From Oxalobacter paraformigenes (GTDB taxonomy: Bacteria; Pseudomonadota; Gammaproteobacteria; Burkholderiales; Burkholderiaceae_D): a DNA stretch of 64,000 bases. The translations under genes were made by a program, and so were the position numbers. Below, piece by piece: positions 54,754 to 56,939 of the stretch. A model generated the notes under the pieces. The model was not told where the DNA came from and ran no database searches. It saw nothing but the letters and a program-made list of their open reading frames with translations. Position 1 is the stretch's first letter, and every line of letters begins with the position of its first letter. The stretch is taken from positions 317,889-381,888 of the forward strand of contig NZ_KI392031.1 in assembly GCF_000158475.2 (NCBI RefSeq), written 5' to 3'.

Positions 54754-55079
54754 AGAAGCGGCGACGCGGATTCTGTTTATCCCTCTTGAGAGTTTTTTCA
54801 TTTTGCCGGAAACAGGTTTTCCGGTTTTTTTTGCCCATATCGTCCGGAAACGGAAAGGAGACCGGGTTTTTTGGTTGCCGGGAAGGTCTGGCGACCCAGG
54901 CGGCCCGCGGTTTAGACAGGACAGCTTTTGACAAAACGCAAAAACAAACGGGTTTTCTTTTGATCCATTTCAGGGCAGGTGTGCCATTCACGGCGCAAAA
55001 TGGCACGTGTACATTGATTGGGTCATGCAATTTGTCGGGTACCCGAATGTGATCGTCTCTTTCAAGGAAGATTCTGATT
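54754..55079. other. spacer with terminator in the small-gene island
   Basis: A 326-base gap that holds one intrinsic terminator (54806-54832) and no supported gene. Confidence 0.5.
54806..54832 (+). terminator. intrinsic terminator, copy 1 of a repeated element
   Basis: CCGGAAA and TTTCCGG form a seven-base stem with eight T following. The upstream sequence from 54792 is identical to that of the second copy at 55337. Confidence 0.85.
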
Positions 55080-55313
55080 ATGGATGATGCAGCAAGAAAC
55101 CGGAAATTACGTCAAGCCGTTCTGTTGGCAAGCATTCCCGCCTGTCTGGCTGCCATGTTGCTTTACCGGGCGCCAATACGCGAGTTCGTTACCGCGGTTT
55201 TGACGACAGAGACGGAACAGATTGCAAGCCGGATCGACATGGTTGCCGCAGCCAGCCCGGAACGGTCTTTCCGAAACGATGTATCGAAACGATTTTTGCC
55301 TGACCTGGAGTAA
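55080..55313 (+). CDS. small single-helix membrane protein, type 1
   Basis: A 77-residue protein with one hydrophobic helix: KLRQAVLLASIPACLAAMLLYR. The N-terminus is short and charged and the C-terminal part is polar. The ribosome site AAGGAAG lies 8 bases before the ATG. The helix and the residues around it resemble those of the gene at 56700-56939, so the two are probably paralogues. Function unknown. Confidence 0.6.
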   Translation: MDDAARNRKLRQAVLLASIPACLAAMLLYRAPIREFVTAVLTTETEQIASRIDMVAAASPERSFRNDVSKRFLPDLE

Positions 55314-55755
55314 TGGTTTTTTTGCCTTTCTTAAGCGTTTTTTCATTTTGCCGGAAACCGGGTTTCCGGCTTTTTTTATCCCCGTTTTTGGGATTGCGGT
55401 ATTTTTTTCAAAGTCCGCAAGCCCCGGTTTTTTGCCTGAAGGTTTTCCGGAGAGGGCGGCCTGTTTTGGAGTCGTCGAAAAGGGCAGGGCTTGCCAGGCC
55501 AGGCAAGGGAGGGGCCTTATCGGGAGTGCCGCCGCTTGCGGGGGTAAAAGCGGAATGGACAGAAAAACGGCGCCGGACGTTTTGGAGGCAACCGGTGGCG
55601 TTTGCAGACCGCTTCTGTCCGTAAGCGGCGACGCCTTGTCTGCCTTTTGTCGCCGGTTTGGTCAGGCAGGGCAAGCTTCTTTTTTCCAATTGTAGAATAT
55701 CCGGTTTTCTTCCATAATGGGATGGACGAAGCGGACAGGGTGGGGAGAAGCGGAA
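55314..55755. other. spacer with terminator upstream of the baseplate-like pair
   Basis: A 442-base GC-rich gap. The terminator copy at 55350-55377 ends the small membrane-protein gene. A TAGAAT at 55693-55698 could be a -10 for the baseplate-like pair; no -35 was assigned. Confidence 0.45.
55350..55377 (+). terminator. intrinsic terminator, copy 2 of a repeated element
   Basis: GCCGGAAA and TTTCCGGC form an eight-base stem followed by seven T. It lies 36 bases after the small membrane-protein gene. Confidence 0.88.
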
Positions 55756-56136
55756 ATGATCTTCAACAGGGAATTTGAATTCACCTTGCCGCGCGGATTT
55801 ATCGATAGCCAGGGCAAGGTGCATAGGAAAGGCCTCATGCGGTTGGCGACGGCAGCGGATGAAGTCGTTCCGATGAGAGATTTCCGGGCGCAGCAGAATC
55901 CCGCTTATCTGCCGGTTCTTGTGCTTGCGCGCGTCATTGTCCGGCTGGGGGAACTGCCGGAAATCAATGCCGGGGTTATCGAAAATCTTTTTACTGCCGA
56001 TATGGCTTTTTTGCAGGACATGTATCGGCGGATCAACGAGATGGCCGGGGAACCTGTTGTCAATGGGGTTTGTCCCCAATGCGGATGCCATCACAGGATA
56101 CCCCTCGATTTTAACGACCTGAAAACGTTTTCATGA
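55756..56136 (+). CDS. T4 gp26-like baseplate/tail-assembly family protein
   Basis: A 126-residue soluble protein. The ATG at 55756 follows the ribosome site GGGGAGAAG; a longer frame starts at 55717 without one. The body FEFTLPRGFIDSQGKVHRKG, LMRLATAADEVVPMRD, NPAYLPVLVLARVIVRLGELPEI and LFTADMAFLQDMYRRINE fits a family found in phage-tail-like contractile injection clusters and annotated as T4-type baseplate or tail-assembly protein. A CPQCGCHH cysteine pair near the C-terminus may bind zinc. The match is from memory of family patterns, not a search. It overlaps the next gene by four bases. No sheath, tube or spike gene is in the window. Confidence 0.65.
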   Translation: MIFNREFEFTLPRGFIDSQGKVHRKGLMRLATAADEVVPMRDFRAQQNPAYLPVLVLARVIVRLGELPEINAGVIENLFTADMAFLQDMYRRINEMAGEPVVNGVCPQCGCHHRIPLDFNDLKTFS

Positions 56137-56510
56137 ACAAGGAAATGGAAAAGAGGCCGGCTGCTCCGGCGTCCGGAAAGGACGAACCGGAACGGAAGGA
56201 AACAAAAGCCATACAGGCTTCCATTGAGGTTATCCTGCATACGCGGGTTAGCGGAAGATCGTTTCAGCCTGCACTTGGATGCCGCCTTTACGATCCGGTA
56301 AACGTCTGGCTGGATGTGACTGACCGGGAACGGGCATGCGAGGAAGCGGCGGGGATAATCGGCGAATACGAGCCCAGGGCGGCAAATGTTCGCGTCGTTG
56401 TGGAAAGCGCTCAGGAAAACGGCAAACCGGATTTCCTGAAGGTTTCCTGGGTAGTGAAATCGACCGGACAATACGATGAACTGGTTGTGCCTTTTCCATT
56501 GAACAGCTAG
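56133..56510 (+). CDS. gp25-like baseplate wedge protein (lysozyme-like fold)
   Basis: A 125-residue protein. After a basic, proline-rich N-terminus of about 30 residues, the sequence IEVILHTRVSGRSFQPALGCRLYDP, then YEPRAANVRVVVE and TGQYDELVVPFPL, matches the GPW/gp25 family of baseplate wedge components, including eCIS and T6SS TssE-like members. In these systems gp25 joins sheath to baseplate. An orphan copy without sheath would be unusual. The start overlaps the preceding gene (ATGA), so the two proteins are probably made in equal amounts. Confidence 0.65.
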   Translation: MNKEMEKRPAAPASGKDEPERKETKAIQASIEVILHTRVSGRSFQPALGCRLYDPVNVWLDVTDRERACEEAAGIIGEYEPRAANVRVVVESAQENGKPDFLKVSWVVKSTGQYDELVVPFPLNS

Positions 56511-56699
56511 ATTTTCCGGAACTTTACCGGCGTCTGTCTTGTCAATACCTCTTTTTTCGCGTTTGTGTTGCGTTTTTTCCGGTGAAGCTGTCACGTCTTT
56601 TTCATATCCCGCCTGTCATCTGTTCCTGCCTGAAGGCTTTCGTCCACAAGACGCCTGTCCCGACAGGACAATGCTCCATTTTTACGAAAGGATTCGATC

Positions 56700-56939
56700 A
56701 TGAACACTATTTCCCCGAAGCTCTGCCGGGCCATGCTGTTCGGCGGTTTGCCGGCCTGCATGATCGCGATGATTCTCTTCCGGGACCCTTCAAGCGAAGA
56801 GCCGACCCATGATATGCCGGGAGGGGCCAACCGGTTCATCAGCCGGAGCCGGACTGTCAGCATGCCCTTGCCCGTTGCCGAAAGGGGGAGCCGGTATACC
56901 GGACGCCGGGTGAGAAGCCGGTCGGTGAAAACGGTTTGA
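56700..56939 (+). CDS. small single-helix membrane protein, type 2
   Basis: A 79-residue protein with AAAGGA 8 bases before the ATG. The hydrophobic helix KLCRAMLFGGLPACMIAMILFR resembles that of the gene at 55080-55313 (shared pattern KL..A.L...PAC..AM.L.R). The C-terminal part is basic and rich in arginine and serine (ISRSRTVS; RYTGRRVRSRS) and may be disordered. Function unknown. Confidence 0.6.
   Translation: MNTISPKLCRAMLFGGLPACMIAMILFRDPSSEEPTHDMPGGANRFISRSRTVSMPLPVAERGSRYTGRRVRSRSVKTV

Follow-up and report, generated by a model that had tools for sequence, protein, structure and literature searches.

A gene pair for gp26-like and gp25-like proteins

We analyzed a window of 64 kb of Oxalobacter paraformigenes DNA, positions 317889-381888 of contig 2 in a genome of 2.49 Mb. 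On the plus strand of this window, two open reading frames without interruption share an ATGA overlap (Table 1), a typical arrangement for translational coupling. A longer frame of the upstream gene, starting at 55717, was also considered; homologues gave no support for it, and 55756 is the correct start.

Table 1. Features of the gene pair and its surroundings (window coordinates, except for the prophage)
Feature	Position	Strand	Basis or remark
smA, small predicted membrane protein, neighbour outside the system	55080..55313	+	G145 homologue adjoins smB without the pair
Segment missing from the smA-smB interval of relative G145	55314..56641 (approximate)	+	Gene order in L126, DNA alignment
Terminator-like hairpin between smA and the pair	55350..55377	+	Weak; such sites not above shuffle expectation
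gp26-like (tail-assembly-chaperone-like) orphan gene	55756..56136	+	126 aa, C-terminal CPxC; phrog_508, full-length homology, 37/39 CIS-conserved columns, AF2 model
gp25-like (baseplate wedge / sheath initiator) orphan gene	56133..56510	+	125 aa; PF04965, fold match, nearest CIS gp25 in L063 and L045
smB, small predicted membrane protein, neighbour outside the system	56700..56939	+	Homologues in relatives without the pair
P2-like prophage with gpV-, gpW- and gpJ-like genes and sheath	G000 (same genome) contig 2, about 1382000-1391000 (L002-L004)		

The product of the downstream gene matched Pfam GPW_gp25 (PF04965) with an E value of 6e-11 and 42.4 bits, over the curated cut-off of 27.2, and the baseplate wedge family phrog_43 (1e-6); a match to TssE was weak. 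Its predicted structure (pLDDT 76) matched T4 gp25 in Foldseek (E 1e-6, TM 0.73-0.76), with further fold matches to Geobacter 2ia7, TssE, a Streptomyces contractile injection system (CIS), Pvc9, Afp9 and IraD-RssB (6od1). The product of the upstream gene matched phrog_508, a tail assembly chaperone family (1.3e-6), and was mostly 55-64% identical, over residues 1-119, to gp26-like proteins of CIS clusters; matches to Mu gp41 profiles were weak. The CPxC that is invariant in the family is present in this protein. A fold search of the PDB with its AF2 model (pLDDT 86) returned no significant match; the best by fold overlap was YqbN (3klu; TM 0.51, probability 0.47), a phage-type protein of B. 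subtilis. Because the model had no significant PDB match, a tail-assembly chaperone identity is a lead, drawn from the profiles and the model. The gp26-like and gp25-like homologies and the coupled frames of the original prediction were borne out by profile searches, the predicted fold of the gp25-like product and the ATGA overlap. The two families have known roles in tail assembly: the chaperones attach to the tape-measure and tube proteins, and gp25 initiates sheath polymerization.

Surroundings of the pair and the corresponding site in relatives

The pair lies between smA and smB, beyond which are housekeeping genes, dapC/dapD/dapE-like on one side and adiA (the name used here for the gene of a 757-residue decarboxylase-like protein) on the other. 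The products of smA and smB resemble each other in their N-terminal membrane segment, and the two genes, which not all members of the genus have, appear to be paralogues. At 54784-54832 and 55329-55377, smA is flanked by a 49-base direct repeat (90%) with the terminator-like hairpin. The hairpin weakly suggests that the pair may be transcribed apart from smA. A scan for promoters gave no match. Third-position GC was 0.58-0.61 in the pair versus 0.70-0.77 in its neighbours.

The site is empty in relative G145 (96% in adiA), in which the gene order is adiA, smB, smA, dapC without the pair and homology starts again shortly before smB, at about 56642. The pair is also absent between dapC and adiA in G093 and G149. 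Homologues of smB were 71% identical in G049 and G145 and 43-44% identical in G093 and G149. The original prediction had assigned the pair its own small membrane-protein neighbours in a four-gene layout. We rejected such a unit, since smA and smB occur without the pair in G145, and smB without it in G093 and G149.

Apart from G049, the other 11 genomes of the genus lack the gp26-like gene. G049, which showed no gp25 match and no sheath match, carries an intact gp26-like gene upstream of smB and adiA; about 1.4 kb, with an aquaporin-like gene in it, separate this gene from smB. In the product of this gene (L013 9667-10011), a Cys/His-rich tail replaces the CPxC module. The gene was considered as a pseudogene and this was rejected: the TGA inside the BLAST match is its own stop codon, and the frame is intact with 114 residues.

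The common position of the window and G049 genes suggests common descent; trees neither firmly supported nor rejected their grouping (p-AU 0.33 and 0.50). Synonymous sites between the two were saturated, so that selection after orphaning is inseparable from selection inside an earlier CIS; we infer that selection acted on the window gene while it was an orphan. This gene had a long branch in the trees. It grouped with those of L045 and L063 in a first tree and not in a second, and that placement was withdrawn; AU tests did not reject its grouping with G049, with the Paenibacillaceae orphans described below, or with L045 and L063. On whether all orphan gp26-like genes may form one clade, each of the two trees gave 4 changes.

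Searches for an injection machine

Genes of injection systems are known as clusters. Using phmmer, with queries taken from the larger proteins encoded by three CIS loci, we found no CIS part other than the pair in the 64-kb window; at the G049 locus the same queries found only the gp26-like gene. The tube profile of extracellular CIS (eCIS), PF06841 (T4_gp19), had no match in the 13 genomes of the genus; the same search gave matches in the positive controls G028, G009 and G144. The only other gp25 of the genome (1383535) and its only sheath match (1389723) share a locus with gpV-, gpW- and gpJ-like genes. This locus, about 1 Mb from the pair, is a P2-like prophage. The clustered sheath, tube, spike and further core genes of an eCIS were not found at the pair, and no member of the genus has such a cluster; a complete tail cluster right beside the pair in relatives had been named as the sign of simple decay. 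The pair is an orphan in its window, as had been predicted. The idea of a cut-down machine, or of a cluster split between this site and another part of the genome, came from that earlier suggestion only, and the profile searches leave it next to no probability: there is no tube, and sheath and gp25 were not found outside the prophage.

Intact clusters are arranged differently. In G028, a member of the same family, about 5 kb separate the gp26-like gene from the gp25-like gene, within a cluster that also has sheath, tube and baseplate genes; in L063, L045 and L014 the distance is 3.8-5 kb, and the interval holds tube, LysM, hub or spike genes. L063 and L045, with a spacing of about 3.8 kb, have the gp25 proteins that best match that of the window. 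Because the genes are 3.8-5 kb apart in intact clusters, their adjacency in the window is a derived state that arose by deletion or partial import. CIS genes adjoin the gp26-like gene in 77 of the 80 loci found by a scan of named genomes, and a class-wide survey of 369 genomes showed only two others with a gp26-like gene, both with adjoining tube genes. Among 2.9 million viral contigs there were 9 relatives, so that a phage source is not favoured. A published eCIS survey counts GPW_gp25 and Phage_T4_gp19 as core domains (PMC8213781); a text search of that survey gave no hit for gp26 or for orphan loci (PMC8213781).

Unequal conservation of the two proteins

We compared both proteins with their CIS counterparts at conserved columns, with leave-one-out controls: 39 columns conserved at 95% among 81 CIS rows for the gp26-like protein, and 29 columns conserved at 90% among 27 CIS proteins for gp25. 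The gp26-like protein kept 37/39 columns in the window and 35/39 in G049, and CIS members left out in turn lost 0-3. The window gp25 was changed at 15/29 positions, including the GER motif and the N-terminal FLGxGxxFP (EPR is retained), whereas 26 of the 27 CIS gp25 proteins lost 0-3; the exception, L108, also lost 15. The gp25/gp26 dN ratio was only slightly above that of controls and was set aside as main evidence.

With losses of 15/29 versus 2/39 conserved sites, the wedge protein seems to be eroding or changing while the gp26-like protein holds steady, and it is probably the latter, rather than the wedge fold, that is retained. A domesticated use of the wedge fold, offered in the original prediction, therefore named the weaker half of the pair: gp25 has lost these sites and is absent in G049, and it is the gp26-like protein that is retained.

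In a drift simulation (substitutions alone, no indels) with 0.37 neutral changes per site, the probability of staying free of stop codons was 0.06-0.08 per lineage for gp26 and about 0.03 for gp25, which makes passive survival less likely.

Standalone gp26-like genes in other bacteria

Standalone gp26-like genes were found in L040 (Paenibacillus sp. FJAT-26967), L043 (P. lutrae) and L041 (Lachnoclostridium An131), and the three corresponding genomes (G150, G151, G152) showed no match to the PF06841 tube profile. The Lachnoclostridium gene (L041 8001-8369) has no CIS genes within 8 kb. L040 encodes the most identical homologue of the window protein (62-64%). In the Paenibacillaceae genus of L040, 5/5 genomes had one gp26-like match each; all these genes are intact, none has CIS genes next to it, and their neighbourhoods are of three kinds. 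Because a CIS copy would show as a second gp26-like match, G153-G155 would also lack a CIS of this kind.

The five Paenibacillaceae orphans form one clade (100/100), and all 10 pairs among them had dN/dS of 0.13-0.27 (Fisher 3e-4 to 5e-14). Such purifying selection argues more strongly than any other result that a gp26-like protein can function free of a machine. Around these orphans (L139-L146) are genes of small secreted proteins, or a metallophosphoesterase-like or ion-channel-like gene; no partner is constant, and no gp25 gene was seen next to other orphans. In PADLOC, no defence model matched the window gp26-like protein, and one weak match was seen in 1/43 members. No report of standalone gp26-like genes was found in the lists and abstracts of the open-licence literature.

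Origin and possible role of the pair

We lean, with some confidence, to the pair being what remains of a clostridial-type eCIS, or a small piece imported from one, with the gp26-like protein as the kept part and gp25 relaxing or changing. An eCIS of this type, or a small piece of one, would have been acquired horizontally; the tube, hub and spike genes between the two genes would have been lost or never imported, and the rest of the machine would be gone. The window holds no other CIS remnant, so that either collapse at this site or the import of just two genes may have produced the pair.

By analogy with phage tail-assembly chaperones, the gp26-like product may be a standalone folded protein kept for binding other proteins, and we favour a chaperone- or adaptor-like role. 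With its small C-terminal Cys motif, it would bind another cellular protein through its binding surface; such action is the most economical assumption because the tape-measure or tube partner is absent. The gp25-like protein, presumably co-translated with it, would be a passenger that is relaxing or changing. We hold more tentatively the wider reading, somewhat short of probable, in which a gp26-like tail-assembly protein became a domesticated, standalone protein of the cell and selection has preserved it in Paenibacillaceae and this genus, either once the machine was lost or with no machine at all.

The alternative that survives best is plain decay, in which both genes are functionless passengers, left from a CIS that was lost or only partly imported, and are unbroken so far by chance. 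The erosion of half of the conserved gp25 sites, the absence of the gp26-like gene from 11 other genomes of the genus, the long terminal branches and the low third-position GC of the pair (consistent with import) all fit decay. However, the gp26-like gene is intact in two species at corresponding positions with just 2 and 4 changes at the 39 conserved sites, its low probability of escaping stop codons under neutrality speaks against inertness, and the independent Paenibacillaceae orphans are under purifying selection; we therefore regard decay as unlikely, if still a serious competitor.

Joint co-option as a functional pair, with the gp25 fold serving a new partner as E. coli IraD binds RssB, appears improbable. 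It would explain why the coupled frames are both open, why the predicted gp25 fold is kept, and why so diverged a gp25 is still free of stop codons, but it sits poorly with the lack of gp25 in G049 and at other orphans and with a loss of conserved gp25 sites far above that of nearly all CIS gp25 proteins.

We give very little credence to action in trans on phage tails, as a helper of the P2-like prophage or as a decoy that spoils tail assembly of invading phages. Such a prophage is resident in the genome and both families work in tail assembly, but G049 keeps the gp26-like gene with neither gp25 nor sheath match, so that a contractile-prophage helper role fails there, and the window protein has no PADLOC match.

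If the gp26-like protein does persist alone under purifying selection in genomes that lack the machine, this would point to a second, unrecognized job of a tail-assembly protein, and orphan gp26-like genes would offer small, testable single-gene systems. A lone gp25 or gp26 match would then also call for caution before an injection system is named.

Comparison with known systems

IraD, an anti-adaptor with the gp25 fold, resembles the window gp25 as a case of this fold outside a tail (6od1); the likeness seen here is one of fold, not of sequence or of an RssB link. Phage tail assembly chaperones (Mu gp41, PHROG 508, YqbN 3klu) are linked to the gp26-like protein by the PHROG match, by weak matches to Mu gp41 profiles and by a loose similarity in fold to YqbN, but the window protein has no tail genes beside it, no frameshift partner was seen, and it carries an extra C-terminal Cys motif. 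The Paenibacillaceae orphans (L040, L043, L141-L143) differ from the window in their neighbourhoods and in having no gp25 neighbour; like the window, they have an intact gp26-like gene with no CIS beside it. In the clostridial eCIS of Caproicibacter fermentans (L063) and bacterium 1XD42-1 (L045), the two genes are 3.8 kb apart amid sheath, tube, hub and spike genes, whereas the window pair is adjacent and alone, and its gp25 has lost motifs that are conserved there; both proteins are nonetheless homologous to those of these systems over their full length, including the CPxC of the gp26-like protein.
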